Of a stretch of 64,000 bases of DNA, positions 17,942-63,642 are shown one piece after another. Below the pieces are notes generated by a model. The model searched no databases and was not told where the DNA came from. It saw only the letters and a program-made list of their open reading frames with translations. The position numbers were made by a program, and so were the translations under genes. Positions within the stretch are counted from its first letter, which is position 1. Every line of letters begins with the position of its first letter. The stretch comes from an uncultured bacterium (GTDB taxonomy: Bacteria > Elusimicrobiota > Elusimicrobia > Elusimicrobiales > Elusimicrobiaceae), in NCBI GenBank assembly GCA_949298795.1, contig CASFXV010000006.1, forward strand, positions 1 to 64,000, read 5' to 3'.

Positions 17942-18914
17942 CTTCAAACTGGTCAGCCTGCCACAGTAAAGAAGAGGAGGCTTTGCCAGGGCGGGCAGGC
18001 TGATTGGGAAGCATTAGTTTACGCCGGGGATCTTCCAAATGAATACAATAACTGTTAACTGCAAAATCTATGCCATGAAATAAACGGTAATTTCGGCCGG
18101 CCAATTCTATTTTGCTTGCTAACAGTAACGCCAAAACCTGCTTTTTAACATTTTTATCAAACTGTTCCAACGGAAACTGCTTAGAGGCTATCTGCCAAAC
18201 AATTCTATCTACTAAAAAACGAAATGGCTCTATAAAATCCTCCGCCAAATTAAAGGGATTATCTTTGCGGTCATGGCCTACGCCAAAATTTAAACATAAT
18301 CCCGCCGCCGCCAGACTACGGGCAATTATCGCACGCAAAACAGCGTATCCATAATTTAAAGCAATATTAACAGGGTCTGCCGCCCCTTGTTTTTCTCTAA
18401 ACAAAATGGGATTGTGAAGAGATGTAAAAAAAGAGGGCCAATAGGATTGGGCTGCTTGCGCTTCCCGCGTAGAAGCATTTTCCGCATTCACCTGGCCGGA
18501 AATTAGTTTCAAGCGGTCTGAAAGGGCGGAATCAAAATCGGAAGCGGCCAAAGCCTGCCCCCTAATTTTAGCTTCTATAAGCTGCTTCCATAGGTTTTTG
18601 CTTTCGGGCCCACTTAAATACTTTGCCTGTAAAAAAGGCCGTTTGGCTCCCTCCAAATTATTGCCAACCGGCAAAGCCATACTGCACGGCATATGTTTGT
18701 TATCGGCAAACACAACCGCCGCGCCTTGTTGGGCCAGTTCCTGCAAAACCGCTAAAGAAACTCTAATGCAGGGATGCGAAAGCACCAATACGGCAATATC
18801 ACAAACCGCTATTAAATGAGATTGCTGGCCCTTGCAAAAACTTATCTTTAGACGCCCTGTATCAATAGACAGGGCGGCCTCGCGGTCTATACTAATTAAA
18901 TGCTGTATACTCAT
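17928..18914 (-). CDS. cas1: CRISPR-associated integrase Cas1
   Basis: The 328-aa protein has the Cas1 fold: a beta-rich N-terminal part (residues 1-80), then the helical catalytic domain with the Glu in NAENASTREAQAAQSYW, the His in LNFGVGHDRKDNPFNLAEDFIEPFR and the acidic ED-x2-EP pair just after it. These are the metal ligands for spacer integration. The start overlaps the cas9 stop (ATGA), so the genes are co-translated. No csn2 or cas4 is present, consistent with subtype II-C. Confidence 0.95.
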   Translation of the reverse strand: MSIQHLISIDREAALSIDTGRLKISFCKGQQSHLIAVCDIAVLVLSHPCIRVSLAVLQELAQQGAAVVFADNKHMPCSMALPVGNNLEGAKRPFLQAKYLSGPESKNLWKQLIEAKIRGQALAASDFDSALSDRLKLISGQVNAENASTREAQAAQSYWPSFFTSLHNPILFREKQGAADPVNIALNYGYAVLRAIIARSLAAAGLCLNFGVGHDRKDNPFNLAEDFIEPFRFLVDRIVWQIASKQFPLEQFDKNVKKQVLALLLASKIELAGRNYRLFHGIDFAVNSYCIHLEDPRRKLMLPNQPARPGKASSSLLWQADQFEDAPQ

Positions 18915-21900
18915 TGGCTTTTTAATTTAGTGATGTCCTGCCGCGTTGCTACCACCTTATATTTTTTAAAATTAGAAATATTTTTGAATTTTTCTTTGAA
19001 ATTCTTTTTAGGAACTTCCGTAGTCAACATACAAACCGCCCCGGAAGAGGAACTAAACTTTCTAACTTTATAGAACTGTTTATTTTCTGTATCGTACAAT
19101 ATATCCCCTATAAAAACACGAATTATTCCTTCCGGAACGCTTTCATGCGGCTGATAACTCCACAAGGGAATTAATTTTACAATCCGTCCTGTTTTGAAGT
19201 CAAACTCAATACAAGCATAGCCGTAATTTCTATAGAATTTATGATGTTTCTTTCCCCCTAAATCCGTATGTATAACCTCTTTATCCACACCCGGCGCAAA
19301 TTGGGCCAAGAAACGCTCCTTGTACATATACTGAAGCTTTTGTACTTTTTTGCCTCTGTAATAAATGCCGTCTTGCGGGTTGTCTTTTTGACCGCAGAGG
19401 GCTTCTTCTGCCGTCATTCCCGCATCTAGTCTGGCTTGCAGTTGCTTTAAAACGGCTTGTTTAATTTCTTCACCAAAGATTACAGATTCCAAATGAGAAA
19501 TCAATTCTGTTTTTGTTCTTAACTTGTTGTTTGCTTTTAAGAAAGATTGTAATGGCGCGCGATGCACAAAACGCGCCATATTCTCTTTCTTCTTCACATT
19601 ATAGGCCGTTTCGTCAAACAATTTCCCTGCCGGGAAGTGGTCCGGTTTATGCCATACCACATAATGCGTCAGGCGTTTTTCTAATTCCTGCCGGATAGCG
19701 TGATACTGCGCAATATCGTCCACCAAAAAACCGGGGATATCCTTGGATTTATCACGTACGCCGTTTTCATCGGTGTATTCTATTTTCTCCAGCGTACCAT
19801 ACCGGGCATGATGGTCGGCCGCGCGCTTAATCATAGACAAATCACACAAGCCGATAACCGCCGCATCTACCGCATGGTGGCGGTAGTCGCACCGTTTATT
19901 AAACTGCAGCAGCGTACGCTGTTCCCGACGGAAATTTTTAAAAGCTTCATCAAAATCCGTCTTTGTTTGCGGTTTTGTATCCAATAAGCGGCAATAGGCT
20001 TCAAAATCACTTTTCAACGCTTTGCTTTCTGAGTATTCCAGCCTGTCTGTATCAAACAATTCCGTCCATTTTTCCGGTTCTATGATATGGTTATCCTTAT
20101 CAAAAAGATCTTTTCCTTCCAACAAACGCACATGCGGCAAAACCCGGTTAAAACGCAAATGCCCGCGCAAATAAGACGTCAACCCGCCAAACGAAGGCGT
20201 AACTTTGGAACAAATGTCTTTACACCACCCCAGCACAATTTTGCCAATCCAAGCCGTTTCCTGATTTTGGCGGTTATTAAAATCCTCTTTCAATTCTTCC
20301 GGCGTTATCAACAAATTATGTATCTTGCGAGCGATACGCACCCCTCTTTGGGTGGGTTTCCATTTGTGATCTTTGGGGGACAGATAGCCTTTTTCCTCCT
20401 TCTTATACAATTGCTGTAAATGTATGACAAAATTAATTAAAGAACTATCATAGCCAAACGTTGCTTTTTCAACAGGGGCTTTATTCTTCTTGGCTTTTTT
20501 ATAATTTTCCTTTTCTGTTTTTAAAAACGCCAAATAAGCGTCTATGTCTTCTTGAAATTTCCATTGATAAGGCAACTGGTTGGATTTTTTTAAATTTTCT
20601 TGTTTAAAAACCAATACTTTGTTTTCAAATACATCCGGCCCGGCTATCTCGCCGCGTTGGGGAATGATATGATCTATCTGAGTGTAATTTTCATCAAACG
20701 CCTGGGAAAAAGAGATATGATTTCCGCTATATGGGCATTTTTCATCTTGTTCTTTCCATAACAAATATTTTTCTATATTGCGCGGGGTTACCAGTACTTG
20801 GCCTTTTTGCAGCTCAGCCACGGCTTCTTGGCGCAGCTGAGCCTGTTGTTTATTTTGACCTTCCAGCCATTTGCGCTGCTGCAGCGATTTTTTCATATCG
20901 CGAGAAAGCTCTACTACAATTTCCTCCGGCAAACCATACTTTTTAACAATATAATTCATTACCCGATAAAATTCCGCCAAAGCACGGCTGATAACAGGGT
21001 CATTAATACTTTCCTGCGCTTTGATGGCCTCTACCGAGCGGAGTTTACCGCGCAGGCTGTGTTCTTGCGTATGAATCTGCGCTAAAACAGCTTCTTCTTG
21101 TTCCCCTTTTAAAATACGTTCAGTAAGCAAACCCAACGCTTTTACCCCGTAGGAGGAGCGGCCTTTCTCCAATGAAAAAGAAGAAAAGACATTTTTATCC
21201 CGCAAAGTTAAAATAAACTCCAAGCCTTCTTGCAAATCTTCCGGGCTGGAGGCTACATTTTTTGTAAGACGGGCAAATTCTTGCTGGATATAAGAAGCAG
21301 AGTTGTCTTCAATATCTGAAAATGTAGTAATATTAGCCAAAAATTCTACCACAAGTTCCTGCCCTTTGTCCGACAGGCCCATCCACTCTTTGAATACGCC
21401 CGCCCGTTGAAAAGCCGCTGATGTGGAATTTCCCCGAATACCCCTTTTGGCCCCATTGCTGCGATCCGCCGTAAAACGCATATCCGGTAAAAAGTTTAAT
21501 TTTTCGTATATTTTAGAAAAAGCCATTACACTGCTATTTTGAATATATGCTTCGGAGGAACCGTCTATATAATCAAATAACATACGCCGGTCTTTGGGAG
21601 ATAAGGCTTCAGGCGCTTTTTTGCCTGGAATATAGAAACGCAAATCAGCAATTTCTTTAGCCAAACGGTATCTTTGATAAGCCAACTGGGCGCAAGAGGC
21701 CCGTTTTTCTTCCGGGAAAACAGCGCAGTCCCCCACTGTTTCCAACTCCCAACGAATAGGCCGCTGATAAAAGATAGCCGAATGAAAAGCCTCCTGCAGG
21801 GAAATTTCCTTTTGGCCGGAAAAATCTGGGAAGAGATTGTCCCCCCATACCGCATACCGGCCCTTTAATTCCACGTGATATTTACTTTGTTCTTCATAAA

Positions 21901-22498
21901 TCCGCCGGAATTCTTCTTCTATCATCTCCCGGTAAATAAAAGTGCCGCTGTCTTCTACTTTGCGCCAAGGATTCCCATTACTGGCGGATTTGCGCTCATA
22001 CAAGAGCTGCCCCAGCGTTTTGCCCCCTTCCAGCAATTTTTCTGTTACTTTTATATTATTTTTTACTTTGCTGCCGTCACTTCCTTTCAACGTGCCTTTA
22101 TAACCGCGATTTTTTACAATATGACAAAACACCTTAATTAGTTGCGGCAGAGAAATTTCCTGCGTTACCGCTTTGGCACGCAAGCAAATTACATCTTCTT
22201 TATCCGCCAAGACATCTTCCCGCGTAATGCCCAAAGAAGCAGCAATAAACCCTATTTTGCGAAGACGCGCCGCTTTACGTTCCACCTGCCGCCTGATAAG
22301 CCTTTCCGCACGGCGCATGCTGTTTAATGTAACCATTTCCTTAGGGGCCACCGGTTCACCAAAAATATAACTGTCTAAATGCAGCACCCCACTGATATGC
22401 TTTTGAGCGTCTAAGTTATATGCAACCACCCCAATAGAAGACGTGCCCAAATCAATTCCCAAACGATAGGAAGCTAATAGCTTATTGTTATCTGTCAT
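18911..22498 (-). CDS. cas9: CRISPR-associated endonuclease Cas9 (type II-C-like)
   Basis: The 1195-aa effector nuclease is guided by crRNA and tracrRNA. RuvC-I is YRLGIDLGTSSIG with Asp16. The arginine-rich bridge helix is RRAERLIRRQVERKAARLRK (about 70-90). RuvC-II is IVVELSRD with Glu530. The HNH domain is YTQIDHIIPQ with Asp609 and His610, plus a downstream ENKVLVF...NLKKSNQLP. RuvC-III is YRHHAVDAA with His875 and Asp878. All catalytic residues are present, so both DNA strands should be cut. AGAGAGG precedes the ATG. The length is somewhat above typical compact II-C enzymes. PAM preference cannot be read from this window. Confidence 0.97.
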   Translation of the reverse strand: MTDNNKLLASYRLGIDLGTSSIGVVAYNLDAQKHISGVLHLDSYIFGEPVAPKEMVTLNSMRRAERLIRRQVERKAARLRKIGFIAASLGITREDVLADKEDVICLRAKAVTQEISLPQLIKVFCHIVKNRGYKGTLKGSDGSKVKNNIKVTEKLLEGGKTLGQLLYERKSASNGNPWRKVEDSGTFIYREMIEEEFRRIYEEQSKYHVELKGRYAVWGDNLFPDFSGQKEISLQEAFHSAIFYQRPIRWELETVGDCAVFPEEKRASCAQLAYQRYRLAKEIADLRFYIPGKKAPEALSPKDRRMLFDYIDGSSEAYIQNSSVMAFSKIYEKLNFLPDMRFTADRSNGAKRGIRGNSTSAAFQRAGVFKEWMGLSDKGQELVVEFLANITTFSDIEDNSASYIQQEFARLTKNVASSPEDLQEGLEFILTLRDKNVFSSFSLEKGRSSYGVKALGLLTERILKGEQEEAVLAQIHTQEHSLRGKLRSVEAIKAQESINDPVISRALAEFYRVMNYIVKKYGLPEEIVVELSRDMKKSLQQRKWLEGQNKQQAQLRQEAVAELQKGQVLVTPRNIEKYLLWKEQDEKCPYSGNHISFSQAFDENYTQIDHIIPQRGEIAGPDVFENKVLVFKQENLKKSNQLPYQWKFQEDIDAYLAFLKTEKENYKKAKKNKAPVEKATFGYDSSLINFVIHLQQLYKKEEKGYLSPKDHKWKPTQRGVRIARKIHNLLITPEELKEDFNNRQNQETAWIGKIVLGWCKDICSKVTPSFGGLTSYLRGHLRFNRVLPHVRLLEGKDLFDKDNHIIEPEKWTELFDTDRLEYSESKALKSDFEAYCRLLDTKPQTKTDFDEAFKNFRREQRTLLQFNKRCDYRHHAVDAAVIGLCDLSMIKRAADHHARYGTLEKIEYTDENGVRDKSKDIPGFLVDDIAQYHAIRQELEKRLTHYVVWHKPDHFPAGKLFDETAYNVKKKENMARFVHRAPLQSFLKANNKLRTKTELISHLESVIFGEEIKQAVLKQLQARLDAGMTAEEALCGQKDNPQDGIYYRGKKVQKLQYMYKERFLAQFAPGVDKEVIHTDLGGKKHHKFYRNYGYACIEFDFKTGRIVKLIPLWSYQPHESVPEGIIRVFIGDILYDTENKQFYKVRKFSSSSGAVCMLTTEVPKKNFKEKFKNISNFKKYKVVATRQDITKLKSQ

Positions 22499-22682: not shown

Positions 22683-23603
22683 TTACTTGATTTTTTTACT
22701 ATAGGCGGCAATTTTCTGGCCAATAAGGTCAACAAGCTCCTGCGGACGCTTAACCACTATATGCGGCAGCCAAGCCAATACGGTAGGTAAAATTTCTTCA
22801 TATTTTCCCACAAAACACTCTATAAGAAGCCCTTCCCCTGCTGTTTTGCGCAGAATCTTTTGTCGGGGAAAATAAACTTTCTTTTCAAAATAAGAAGCCG
22901 CTTCCTCGGAAACGGTTAGTTCTACCCGTTTATCGCGGTTTCCCTCAAACCAAACGGAAATGCTGTCCTCCAAAATTTTTTCTATCTGTTTAGGGCGTTT
23001 AAAAAAAATACCCGTGGGGGTAAGTTGTTGTATTTTATCCAAGCGAAGTTTTAAAATTAAATTCTCTTTTCCCAGCGCCAACAAATACCAAAACCCGTCA
23101 AACCAGGCAATTTTAAGCGGGGAAATATCCCGGCCGGACAGCTTTGATTTTTCATATATAATCGTTAATTTTTCCCGTTTTCTAATAGCTTTTTCTATTA
23201 ATTTACTATGGGTATCCTCCCAAAAGTTCTGCCCCTTGGGGAGTTTAATATAAAAAGGGTTTTCTTTATCGTTTTCTAAAATACGGTTTCTCAAACTGAC
23301 ATATGTTTCTTGAAAACTCCCCCCCAAACTCCCGGCAATACTGGCAAGCAAGGCCAACATAGCAGCTTCCTTGGCGCTTAATTTTAGTTTTTGCAAAGAA
23401 TACCCTTCCACAAAACAGTACGTCCCTTTATTGGGGCAGAAAATAGGAAAACCCGCCCTTTCCAAAATTTTAATATCACGCTGAATGGTGCGGACATTCA
23501 CCATGAGCCCCTGCGCAAGGTTTGCTACATTCACCGTTCCTTTGTCAAACTCGCTTAGAATATACATCAACCGGCTTATTTTGTTTAAAGTATCCCCCAG
23601 CAT
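22683..23603 (-). CDS. WYL-domain transcriptional regulator
   Basis: The 306-aa protein has an N-terminal winged HTH (residues about 5-60: VNVANLAQGLMVNVRTIQRD, then ILERAGFPI) and a central WYL domain (REKLTIIYEKSK ... SPLKIAWFDGFWYLLALG ... LRLDKIQQL), followed by a C-terminal WCX-like part. WYL regulators often sense nucleic acid or nucleotide ligands and control defence or repair genes. GGGGAG precedes the ATG. It lies 86 nt after rtcB and about 185 nt before cas9 on the same strand, so it may control either or both. The 16-bp inverted repeat upstream of rtcB is a candidate operator. Confidence 0.88.
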   Translation of the reverse strand: MLGDTLNKISRLMYILSEFDKGTVNVANLAQGLMVNVRTIQRDIKILERAGFPIFCPNKGTYCFVEGYSLQKLKLSAKEAAMLALLASIAGSLGGSFQETYVSLRNRILENDKENPFYIKLPKGQNFWEDTHSKLIEKAIRKREKLTIIYEKSKLSGRDISPLKIAWFDGFWYLLALGKENLILKLRLDKIQQLTPTGIFFKRPKQIEKILEDSISVWFEGNRDKRVELTVSEEAASYFEKKVYFPRQKILRKTAGEGLLIECFVGKYEEILPTVLAWLPHIVVKRPQELVDLIGQKIAAYSKKIK

Positions 23604-23689: not shown

Positions 23690-24904
23690 TCAATTAGTAT
23701 CTTTGGCGGATTGATTTGCCTTCTTCTGCCAGGGCTTAGGTTCATTAGAAGCTTTCACCACTCCCAAAGGACTAAGTTTAACCAAAATTTTAACTAAATC
23801 TTTTTGGTTTTCCATTACTTCGTCAATATTCTTATATGCGCTGGGAGCTTCATCCAACAGTGCCTGTTCATTCATGCGGTGCACAATTCCCTGGCTGTTC
23901 AATATTTCCTGTTCATGCGCCAAGTCCAACTCTCGCATTGCCTTACTGCGGGACATACACCGCCCCGCACCATGGGAACAGGACTGCAGGGAACTTTCAT
24001 TGCCTAGCCCCCGTACAATGTAAGAGCTGGTACCCTGAGAACCGGGAATAATGCCCGTTGTATTTTCACGCGCCAAAGTGGCTCCTTTGCGGTGTACCCA
24101 AACTTTGCGGTTATAATGTTCTTCTATCGCCGCATAGTTGTGATGGATATTAATATCCTGCAAGAAAACAATCTGAGGAAATTCTTCCTTAAAAATCTTT
24201 TTTATAGCAGTGGCAATCATTTTGCGGTTTTCAAAAGCGAAATCTAAACAAAGTTTCATCTCGTTTATATAATCGCCGGCTTCACGCGTGCCTATTGGCA
24301 GAAAGGCTAAATCTTGTTTGACAAGCGCCTCATGCTTAAACAGCGTGCATAGTTTCACCGCTTTTTTATTATAATATTCCGCCACCTGCTTGCCCAAGTT
24401 ACGGCTTCCGCTGTGAATCATAAACCAAATATGACCATCATTACCGCGCTGCACTTCTATAAAGTGATTTCCCCCGCCTAAAGTGCCAATTTGCTTTTGG
24501 GCGGAAAAAAATTCCCGCTTGCACACTTCTGTTTTATTCCAACGGGGCAAATCTAAAAAGAGGGGATTTTCCTGGGCTTCTTTGTGATGCTCAAACCCAA
24601 CGGGGATCCGCTCGTAAATTTTATCTACTATCGCTTGAACCTTATCACGAGAAACATCCGCAAGACTTGTTTGTACCGCCAACATGCCGCACCCGATATC
24701 TACTCCTACCATATTGGGTGAAATAGCATTATCCAGCGCCACCACCCCGCCTATTGGCATACCATAACCGCAATGGGCATCAGGCATTAGGCAAACATTC
24801 CCCACCAAACAAGGGTGCTTGGATAAGTTTTGTACCTGTTGCATTGCCGCGGGTTCTAAATTGCTACACCAAGATAAAATGTTTTGAGCTAATGGTTCCA
24901 TCAT
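23690..24904 (-). CDS. rtcB: RNA-splicing ligase RtcB
   Basis: The 404-aa enzyme joins RNA 3'-phosphate or 2',3'-cyclic phosphate ends to 5'-OH ends with GTP and Mn2+. Signatures are VGVDIGCGMLAVQT (metal-binding Asp and Cys), GTLGGGNHFIEVQ, HSGSRNLGKQ and the guanylylated His in SCSHGAGRCMSR. The length is short of the E. coli enzyme but typical of the bacterial RtcB2-like group. AGGAG precedes the ATG pair at 24904/24901. It begins the co-directional run rtcB-WYL-cas9 and is divergent from the kinase/Thg1 operon. No archease gene is in the window. Confidence 0.95.
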   Translation of the reverse strand: MMEPLAQNILSWCSNLEPAAMQQVQNLSKHPCLVGNVCLMPDAHCGYGMPIGGVVALDNAISPNMVGVDIGCGMLAVQTSLADVSRDKVQAIVDKIYERIPVGFEHHKEAQENPLFLDLPRWNKTEVCKREFFSAQKQIGTLGGGNHFIEVQRGNDGHIWFMIHSGSRNLGKQVAEYYNKKAVKLCTLFKHEALVKQDLAFLPIGTREAGDYINEMKLCLDFAFENRKMIATAIKKIFKEEFPQIVFLQDINIHHNYAAIEEHYNRKVWVHRKGATLARENTTGIIPGSQGTSSYIVRGLGNESSLQSCSHGAGRCMSRSKAMRELDLAHEQEILNSQGIVHRMNEQALLDEAPSAYKNIDEVMENQKDLVKILVKLSPLGVVKASNEPKPWQKKANQSAKDTN

Positions 24905-25193
24905 GTAAATCTCCTATCATAAAATTTAAATAATCTATGGCTGCCATATCAACCCGGAACGGCAGTTTCCGGCCTCCGTTTGCCCCCGATAACCAAAAAG
25001 GGCCCCGTTCCCGCCAGAGGGGTTTTATCAACCCGGGCAGAAACCAGAGGGGTTCTTTCATACATACCCCTATGTAAATATAATAAAACAGTCGGGCGAC
25101 AGCATATGGTCGTGTTAAAACAATTTTAGATATTTTATTGCGACCATATGCTGTCGTTTATTTTTATTAAAATAAAATAAGTATTTTAATTAT
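24905..25193. promoter_or_regulatory. Divergent control region between rtcB and the RNA-repair operon
   Basis: These 289 bases contain the 16-bp inverted repeat at 25097-25156 and a direct repeat CCAGAGGGGTT (25013 and 25042) nearer rtcB. The segment from 25157 to 25193 is almost pure A/T and runs straight into the kinase ATG without a ribosome-binding site. A 65-aa open frame on the - strand overlapping rtcB is a shadow. Confidence 0.6.
25097..25156. promoter_or_regulatory. Perfect 16-bp inverted repeat, candidate operator
   Basis: CGACAGCATATGGTCG (25097-25112) and CGACCATATGCTGTCG (25141-25156) are exact complements separated by 28 AT-rich bases. Each arm contains CATATG and is itself quasi-palindromic, so the pair could be two operator sites or a looped site. 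No T tract follows on either side in terminator position, which favours a protein-binding role. Confidence 0.65.
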
Positions 25194-25655
25194 ATGTTTA
25201 CAAAATATACTAAAACCCTTTTTATCCTAATAGGCATACAGGCAAGCGGAAAGACCACCTTTGCCCATAAGTTCTTGCCCGATTATACCTACATTAGTCT
25301 AGATGAACTACACACCCGCAATAAAGAGCAAACAGCGTTAGAAACCGCTCTTAAAACAGGTTTTAACTGCGTGGTAGACAACACCAACCCCAGCCGCCAA
25401 GAACGAAAGAAGTATATAAATTGGGCCCGATTTAATCATTACAAAACAGTGGGCATATACTTCCGCTCGTCTATCGCTCAATCCCGTCAACGCAATGCCC
25501 GGCGCGCCGGAAAGGCCCAAGTGCCGTTAAAAGCCATATTAGCCACTGCCAAACGCCTTGAGCTGCCTTCTCTGCAAGAAGGATTTGATGAGTTGTACTA
25601 CATAAAAATAGAAAATAGTAATTTTGTCATCTCTAAGTGGGACGAAACTTTATGA
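25194..25655 (+). CDS. Polynucleotide kinase-like P-loop protein (AAA_33 family)
   Basis: The 153-aa protein has a Walker A motif IGIQASGKTTF (residues about 8-18), then YISLDELHTR, then CVVDNTNPSRQERKKYINWA, the layout of the kinase domain of T4-type polynucleotide kinase. A lid with arginines (RQRNARRAGKAQVP) follows. The expected role is to phosphorylate the 5'-OH ends of broken RNA. The phosphatase half found fused in T4 Pnkp is encoded separately at 26464. The stop overlaps the next start by ATGA. Confidence 0.85.
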   Translation: MFTKYTKTLFILIGIQASGKTTFAHKFLPDYTYISLDELHTRNKEQTALETALKTGFNCVVDNTNPSRQERKKYINWARFNHYKTVGIYFRSSIAQSRQRNARRAGKAQVPLKAILATAKRLELPSLQEGFDELYYIKIENSNFVISKWDETL

Positions 25656-26428
25656 AATTTGATGAATTTGATAAAAAAATGAGAAAATTTGAAGAATCTT
25701 TGGATCAGTTTATCCCAACGGATTTTTTTATGGTGGCCCGCCTGGACGGAAAAGGTTTTACCAAATTAACCAAAACAGAAATGGAACTAGAAAAACCTTT
25801 TGATATCCGTTTTAGAGATGCTATTATCAATACCATAAAATATCTCATGAACGGCCAATTCCAAATTATATACGCGTATAATGAAAGCGATGAGATTTCC
25901 CTCTTGTTCCAACATCATACGGATAAATTTAAACGCAAAGTACGAAAATATAATTCCATCTTGGCGGCGGAAACGAGCGTTCACTTTTCCCGCCAGATCG
26001 GCAATAAGGCTATATTTGACTGCCGCATCATACCTTTACCCAATTTGGACGCCGTACAGGATTATTTTGCTTGGCGCCAGGCAGACTCCAACCGAAACGC
26101 CGTGCTTGCCCACTGCTATTACAAATTGGTTGCCTCCGGGAAAACGCCGCCGCAAGCGGCCGCTTATTTGCAAAATTTGCCCTTTCGGGATAAAATAAAA
26201 CTGCTGGCTCATTTTGGCAAGGATTTGCATAGTATTCCCAAATGGCAATTATACGGAATCGCCGTATATTGGCAAGAAACCGCCAAAAGCGGGTTCAACC
26301 CTGTAAAAAACACCCACGAGCAAAGCATACGAAAGAAATTAACCGAAAGTTACGACTTGCCAACCGGCAACGAATATCGAAACTTTATCGCCCGCATAAT
26401 TGCCTGCCCCTTGACTGGGGGAAATTAG
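25652..26428 (+). CDS. Thg1-like protein (3'-5' RNA polymerase, tRNA repair)
   Basis: The 258-aa protein has the Thg1 palm: FFMVARLDGKGFTKLT (Asp32 metal ligand), then EKPFDIRFRDAI, then YAYNESDEISLLF (Asp80-Glu81). These match the carboxylates of tRNA-His guanylyltransferase and bacterial Thg1-like proteins, which add nucleotides to the 5' end of truncated tRNA using a complementary template. The C-terminus (KNTHEQSIRKKL) also fits the family. The gene overlaps the kinase stop, so the kinase may supply the 5'-phosphate that this enzyme must activate. A repair role is better supported by the neighbours than tRNA-His maturation. Confidence 0.9.
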   Translation: MKFDEFDKKMRKFEESLDQFIPTDFFMVARLDGKGFTKLTKTEMELEKPFDIRFRDAIINTIKYLMNGQFQIIYAYNESDEISLLFQHHTDKFKRKVRKYNSILAAETSVHFSRQIGNKAIFDCRIIPLPNLDAVQDYFAWRQADSNRNAVLAHCYYKLVASGKTPPQAAAYLQNLPFRDKIKLLAHFGKDLHSIPKWQLYGIAVYWQETAKSGFNPVKNTHEQSIRKKLTESYDLPTGNEYRNFIARIIACPLTGGN

Positions 26429-26463: not shown

Positions 26464-26904
26464 ATGAAAACTATTTTATTTGACATTGACGGAACCTTGG
26501 CTAACCTTAACGGAAGGGAAAAATTCCTAAAACAGGAAAAACCCGACTGGCAAAATTTTAATGCCAAAATGGAAGAGGACCTGCCCAACACACCAATAGT
26601 GGAACTATACCGCGCCTTATACGAAAGCAAAAAATTTGAAATTATTTTGGTATCCGGGCGGCAAGAAAAATTTCGCAAAGTAACCCAAACCTGGCTAACA
26701 TGGCATGAAATTCCGTTTAACACCCTTTTGATGCGGGCGGATAAAGACCAACGGCCAGACCAGGCAGTAAAACAAGACATATTAAATTCCCTAAAATCAC
26801 AGGGGAAAGAAATCCTTTTTACCGTTGATGACCGGCAAAGCGTGGTAGATATGTGGCGTGCAAACGGCATTACTTGCCTTCAATGCCAAAAGGGGAATTA
26901 TTAA
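26464..26904 (+). CDS. HAD-family polynucleotide phosphatase-like protein
   Basis: The 146-aa protein opens with the HAD motif FDIDGTLANL (Asp nucleophile in DxDGT), has WQNFNAKMEEDLPN, then ILVSGRQEKFRKVTQTWL (motif II), LLMRADKDQRPD and a late acidic VDDR. This is the pattern of the 3'-phosphatase domain of T4 Pnkp, which removes 3'- or 2',3'-cyclic phosphates. It follows the Thg1-like gene by 35 nt. With the kinase at 25194 it makes a split Pnkp. Confidence 0.85.
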   Translation: MKTILFDIDGTLANLNGREKFLKQEKPDWQNFNAKMEEDLPNTPIVELYRALYESKKFEIILVSGRQEKFRKVTQTWLTWHEIPFNTLLMRADKDQRPDQAVKQDILNSLKSQGKEILFTVDDRQSVVDMWRANGITCLQCQKGNY

Positions 26905-27037
26905 TTTTTTGTCATCAGAATCAACAAACAACCCTCTTAAAGCAAGGGTACATGCTTGCGATGACGACTAACAAGCGTGGCAACGTGCCGCTGCAGGCCG
27001 GGTTTATAAAAATAAAAATTGCTGCGGAAAAGTGAAT

Positions 27038-27604
27038 ATGAAAGAATTAGCCATTATCTGCGCTGGATACATTCCGGGAGATATTGCAGATCATCAAAAC
27101 TATCAAAAACGGCTTGGCCAAAATACGCCAATGCCTTCTGCACATGTTAACATCACGGCAAAAGACTATGGGGATATTTCCCTTTGCATAACCTTTAATA
27201 GGAAAACCGTTGAACTAGACGCTGCACTTGGCGCCAATGTTCCGGACGATATCATTGCCTGGTTGGAAGCCATTTGCCTCGGTTATTGCGAAAGCATTTT
27301 TGTAATAGATGAGGAAGGCCCATTAACCATGTTGCGCTATTACTCTACCAGCCAAGCCTCCAGTGGGAGATTTTCTATCTTATCTTCCGCTGGAGATGAA
27401 GCCACTTCCCGCTTATACCAACAAACCGGTGAAACACAAATTATTTGTGATATTTTGATAGACAAAAAAGAATTAGTATCAAAATTTTGGCAAGCGTTGA
27501 CAAACGTCCTAAAAAACATTTCCACAAAACGATTTGAAGAAGTCAACGCAGAGCCCCCTGTCCGCTGTTCTAAAATTATCCAAGATTTTTTAAAAGAAAT
27601 TTAA
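27038..27604 (+). CDS. Unknown protein at the end of the RNA-repair operon
   Basis: The 188-aa protein begins MKELAIICAGYIPGD; a GTG at 27032 is an alternative start. I do not recognise a family. It has alternating strands and helices, with a DIIAWLEAICLGYCESIFVIDEEGP segment in the middle and an amphipathic C-terminal helix. There is no signal peptide or membrane span. It lies 133 nt after the phosphatase gene on the same strand, with no terminator seen between, so it may be a further repair, sensor or toxin-control component. Confidence 0.6.
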   Translation: MKELAIICAGYIPGDIADHQNYQKRLGQNTPMPSAHVNITAKDYGDISLCITFNRKTVELDAALGANVPDDIIAWLEAICLGYCESIFVIDEEGPLTMLRYYSTSQASSGRFSILSSAGDEATSRLYQQTGETQIICDILIDKKELVSKFWQALTNVLKNISTKRFEEVNAEPPVRCSKIIQDFLKEI

Positions 27605-63571: not shown

Positions 63572-63590
63572 ATACCCAGTCCCTTAAAAT

Positions 63591-63623
63591 AAAACCCCGG
63601 CTGTGCAACACAGCCGGGGTTTT
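63591..63623. terminator. Bidirectional terminator between gdhA and the symporter
   Basis: AAAACCCCGGCTGTG, loop CAA, CACAGCCGGGGTTTT. The perfect 15-bp stem with A and T runs on both sides serves the two convergent genes. Confidence 0.88.
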
Positions 63624-63642
63624 AGCGTTTATTTAAAAGCTT

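Follow-up and report, generated by a model that had tools for sequence, protein, structure and literature searches.

The WYL activator DriD of Caulobacter recognizes ATACGAC(X)7GTCGTAT, which overlies the -35 region and keeps a constant spacing to the -10 element at promoters with a poor -35; the two DNA-binding domains of the protein flank the -35 (PMC12340889). Both DriD and the mycobacterial activator PafBC are switched on by single-stranded DNA (ssDNA) in the WYL domain (PMC11804915, PMC12340889), and PafBC-dependent promoters follow the pattern tTGTCRgtg-8nt-TannnT (PMC5656591), which equals TTGTCR-N11-TANNNT. SiwR of M. smegmatis is a homodimeric WYL activator whose site, an imperfect palindrome, lies between -10 and -35 of the adjacent genes that it controls (PMC10693628). 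The rtcBA genes, in turn, are under inducible RtcR-sigma54 control, exerted by a nucleic-acid-sensing activator (PMC7790460). Here, we describe two sites between an rtcB gene and a divergent set of RNA-repair genes that are very probably operators of a DriD-like WYL activator at two divergent promoters, a reading suggested by a DriD/PafBC promoter grammar, the domains of the adjacent WYL protein, its R37/R41 pair and its structural match to DriD.

The window, a stretch of 64,000 nucleotides from a 1.56-Mb Elusimicrobiaceae genome (G000), carries the arm CGACAGCATATGGTCG at 25097-25112 (+) and, after a gap of 28 bp, its exact reverse complement (25141-25156). This perfect 16-bp repeat, reported in an earlier note, is beyond chance: when the window was simulated 60 times with a first-order Markov model, no perfect arms of 16 bp or more separated by a loop of at most 100 arose. 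The note had seen no other copy of the arm in the window, and a search of the whole genome agrees, as these two are the only exact copies and the next best matches carry 3 mismatches. The one other perfect repeat of this class in the window is a terminator-like hairpin with 16-bp arms and a 3-nt loop (63590-63624); the window also holds three copies of a AATCCCTGTTTTTC...GATAAACAGGGATT inverted pair (6870/7007, 10332/10471 and 12918/13056).

The gene setting that the note had described, between divergent rtcB and repair genes and beside a WYL gene, was likewise confirmed. The minus strand encodes the RtcB RNA ligase (23690..24904) and, downstream of it, the WYL regulator (22683..23603). The plus strand encodes a PNK-type P-loop kinase (AAA_33; 25194..25655, with its ATG at 25194), a Thg1-type 3'-5' nucleotidyltransferase (25652..26428) and a HAD_PNKP-type phosphatase (26464..26904). 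A protein encoded further along that strand (27032..27604) is 39% identical to a protein of the same-genus genome G016 that has its own operator-promoter, and its membership of the operon in the window is uncertain. An Rfam scan of the window returned two tRNAs and nothing else, and we make no riboswitch-like claim for the rtcB 5' leader (24905-25074) because it folds no better than its shuffles (z=-1.2). The order rtcB-wyl-cas9 on one strand is found in the window (18911-22498) and in G052 (L030:9541-11745), with cas9 lacking an operator of its own. The idea of a related site upstream of cas9 did not hold, since a search of that region and the rest of the window found nothing further, even allowing one mismatch in the core or the -10.

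Comparison with 66 same-genus genomes changed our view of what the conserved element is. RtcB is found in 8 of them and Thg1 in 4, and a WYL protein at a minimum of about 69% identity occurs in exactly the genomes with RtcB. The note had asked about related rtcB promoters, and a site is present at the rtcB locus in all 8 genus genomes that have the gene. In five relatives with the same divergent pair, the match of one arm to the other is only 11-14 of 16 positions; G016, G006, G021 and G025 have the same divergent gap and two sites 28-30 bp apart, whose arms no longer match each other. The perfection of the repeat is thus peculiar to the window's genome, and the kept unit is each arm rather than the repeat. 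The constant part in relatives is CGAC-N7-TGTCG with TANNNT 11 nt on, always oriented outward, facing rtcB, Ro60-like and WYL genes on one side and kinase, RlaP and phosphatase genes on the other. The CATATG core, which the note had pointed out in each arm, varies among relatives while CGAC/GTCG is kept, and the determinant is instead CGAC-N8-GTCG plus the 11-nt spacing to the -10.

Further sites in the relatives extend the set of target genes. G016 has a third site facing a separate gene, and its gene L016:7170-7784 is bracketed by two identical, directly repeated CGACCTACTGTTGTCG sites. In G006, G031, G049 and G052 a site lies directly 5' of one gene family in the rtcB locus, which Pfam assigns in G006 to DUF2828/DUF7788 (Ro60-like vWA), and the phosphatase gene has its own site in G017, G049 and G011. 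The Ro60-like and RlaP genes at L026:8914-10485 and L030:5123-6673 appear to belong to the same regulon in these relatives.

A further feature of the sites is the spacing between dyad and -10. The composite CGACN7TGTCGN11TANNNT has 140 matches in the 66 genomes versus 14 for the reversed control, and TANNNT stands at exactly 11 nt in 140 of 297 genus matches of CGACN7TGTCG, which involved no preselection. In the fetched loci, offset 11 holds 87 of 154 oriented sites and other offsets 1-18, a percentage that is inflated because the loci were partly picked from composite matches. Counting back from the -10, the dyad spans about -39 to -24, and its variable middle, which reads CATATG in the window, falls in the -35 slot, where the best match to TTGACA is 2.15 of 6 in composites (n=87) versus 2.94 at comparison promoters. 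No -35 hexamer at normal spacing was seen in the 87 composites; a G at -14 (extended -10), which is conserved in the DriD type, is present in 48 of them and absent from both window promoters. A site at a fixed 11 nt from the -10 and without a -35 looks like an activator site. TTGTCG could have been taken for a -35 followed by a 16-nt spacer, but this reading was dropped when the offset histogram singled out TANNNT, 11 nt on, as the fixed element.

The sites also follow WYL genes across the genus: 135 of the 140 composites are in 38 genomes with a WYL match and 5 in 28 genomes without one (Fisher p=1e-8). Where a genome has sites and a single WYL gene (12 genomes), all 22 sites lie within 10 kb of that gene; the window's genome has one WYL match and exactly two sites, 1.5 kb away. 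Many other WYL genes carry a site directly upstream of themselves. Six WYL-positive genus genomes have no exact composite, three WYL-negative genomes have one or two sites, and a fourth, G023, has kinase-Thg1 genes and a site, yet no WYL match. The G023 copy (L034) sits amid phage-like genes in a genome that also lacks an RtcB match, and we read it as a mobile orphan copy. The note's proposal of an operator for the adjoining WYL protein is thus supported by comparative genomics, as the site class tracks WYL genes and is present at the rtcB loci of the genus; its architecture has to be revised, from one inverted-repeat operator to what we read as two operators, each with its own -10.

The WYL protein of the window resembles DriD in several respects. 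Pfam finds HTH_11, WYL and WCX domains, the wHTH-WYL-WCX architecture of DriD, and a profile search matches the protein to 8tp8 (E=1.2e-7). Foldseek with the predicted model ranks DriD first and PafBC next, both above BrxR and CapW, a match that rests on per-domain similarity because the model has a pTM of 0.39 and the TM-scores are low. The predicted recognition helix contains an invariant R37/R41 pair with the spacing of the SiwR R38/R42 and PafB R44/R48 pairs. As at DriD promoters, a CGAC/GTCG dyad brackets a degenerate -35 and keeps a set spacing to the -10, and a bidirectional promoter has been reported at driD itself. In contrast to DriD, the operator spacer is 8 rather than 7 and the flanks are not ATA/TAT, and we therefore name the protein DriD-like, not DriD. 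Other differences are the use of two operators for two divergent promoters, the RNA-repair targets in the window and the different phylum.

Similar parallels connect the locus with PafBC and its RecA-NDp promoters, as TTGTCR-N11-TANNNT equals the string and spacing of the downstream half-site and -10 found here, although the window sites read CTGTCG, not TTGTCG. PafB and PafC, however, form a heterodimer on a non-palindromic motif, whereas the window's genome has a dyad and a single WYL gene, and we did not file the system under PafBC because this one WYL match leaves no heterodimer. With SiwR it would share the activation of adjacent genes by a WYL homodimer through a palindrome; SiwR differs in its 19-bp palindrome, its other targets and its dependence on the -26 region. 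Inducible rtcB control by a nucleic-acid-sensing activator, as proposed here, would recall RtcR-sigma54; RtcR is, however, a CARF/AAA+ enhancer-binding protein of sigma54 promoters, and here a WYL protein is predicted to act at sigma70-type promoters.

Under the DriD-like model, each arm would by itself suffice as the operator of a homodimeric activator, for which the product of 22683-23603 is the likeliest candidate. Since CGAC-N8-GTCG covers about -39 to -24, the two HTH domains would flank a -35 slot without a usable -35 hexamer. Operator 1 (25097..25112), which reads CGACCATATGCTGTCG on the minus strand, would occupy -39 to -24 of the leftward rtcB-wyl promoter, whose predicted -10, TATTAT (25080..25085, minus strand), lies 11 nt beyond it with no G at -14 and no -35 at normal spacing; the regulator would thereby activate its own gene. 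Operator 2 (25141..25156), CGACCATATGCTGTCG on the plus strand, would take the same place at the rightward kinase-Thg1-phosphatase promoter, with the predicted -10 TAAAAT (25168..25173, plus strand) again 11 nt beyond. The A+T-rich 28-bp spacer (25113..25140), upstream of both promoters and 28-30 bp long in relatives, could be a shared UP-element/alphaCTD region. The WYL domain would bind a ligand that signals nucleic-acid damage; in DriD and PafBC this is ssDNA, and here it may be RNA fragments. The ligand-bound dimer would then bind DNA and recruit RNA polymerase both ways, so that ligase and end-healing enzymes are induced together.

The same two operators could instead serve a BrxR/CapW-like repressor, with the WYL protein blocking RNA polymerase at the two promoters for as long as no ligand releases it. 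The sites do overlap the promoters, BrxR represses via inverted repeats (PMC9122601), and autoregulation is common to both modes of action. A repressed promoter would, however, be expected to have a working -35 of its own, and the 87 composites have none; the fixed 11-nt spacing and the PafBC/DriD match fit activation, and the fold search places BrxR and CapW below DriD and PafBC. We consider repression unlikely on these grounds. Still less probable is that the sites belong to another regulator, such as LexA, and are merely linked to these genes. The window's genome does encode a LexA-type DNA-binding domain at another place, but 62 of 66 genus genomes have a match to such domains, many of them without the site, and none was found in G026 or G031, both of which have sites; moreover, site presence follows WYL genes, and the sites adjoin them.

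Two further readings, in which the repeat is not a regulator's target, strike us as barely credible. Transcribed, the repeat could form an RNA hairpin acting as a terminator, attenuator or 5'-UTR element, given 24 bp at 88% pairing around a 12-nt loop and a weak terminator-like call on the plus strand. Both predicted transcript starts nevertheless lie outside the repeat, and relatives have lost the complementarity while keeping CGAC/GTCG and its spacing to the -10. Equally, the arms could be recombinase sites or the terminal repeats of a small mobile element (inverton, MITE), as the bracketed G016 gene and the sporadic kinase-Thg1 genes (4 of 66 genomes) might suggest. In G016, all of the sites face a gene and are followed 11 nt on by a -10 of their own, and recombinase sites, a candidate raised by the G016 direct repeats, were dropped for the latter reason; the site class, in addition, tracks WYL genes and precedes recA in another family.

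That family (f2) emerged from a scan for the composite across 149 genomes of Elusimicrobiales. Few of its matches fall in other genera of the window's family; in f2 the composite has 875 matches versus 21 for the control in 59 genomes, spread over many contigs. It precedes recA, a PafBC/RecA-NDp-type target, by 34-59 nt in 28 of the 30 f2 genomes examined (L120-L149), which suggests a WYL-driven DNA damage response there. Other f2 targets, in a sample, include a metallophosphoesterase, YhcG-type PDDEXK nucleases, RhuM, ORF6N and BRO proteins and a DNA methylase. It is tempting, if still doubtful, to extend the DriD-like model to an order-wide damage response of Elusimicrobiales under WYL activators with a DriD/PafBC-type promoter code. 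In one family this response would govern recA together with DNA-linked genes; in the family of the window it would have been redirected to RNA repair (RtcB, PNK kinase/phosphatase, Thg1, RlaP and Ro60-like proteins), with the WYL protein sensing broken RNA rather than ssDNA.

Actinobacteria have this half-site with its 11-nt spacing (PafBC) and an alphaproteobacterium has a near-identical dyad (DriD), which suggests that WYL activators use a common promoter grammar. For an RNA-repair locus in which rtcB has a WYL gene, not an RtcR-type one, as its neighbour, our analysis supplies a predicted regulator, operator and promoter code, and makes the choice between RNA and ssDNA as the WYL-domain ligand directly testable. 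Used as a search pattern, the composite also picks out genes linked to damage and defence in an order that has received little study. In many genomes a two-AAA ATPase of 650-670 aa, IetA/TRIP13-like according to PADLOC, is encoded directly behind a site near WYL genes (L030:1063-3003, L085, L086, L037 and L070).

Other observations concern individual relatives. A conserved, strongly folding non-coding stretch of about 320 nt (z=-5.5) sits between operator-promoter and repair genes in G016 (L016:7777-8110) and G025 (L033:11638-12030); it has no Rfam match and is possibly a Y-RNA-like RNA, because a Ro60-like gene shares the regulon. The G025 phosphatase gene (L033:12797-13033) is broken, with an internal stop and its middle part missing. 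Near the rtcB locus of G006, CRISPR-like tandem repeats (L026:14110-14996) translate to repeated NILPYSSVPNRN.
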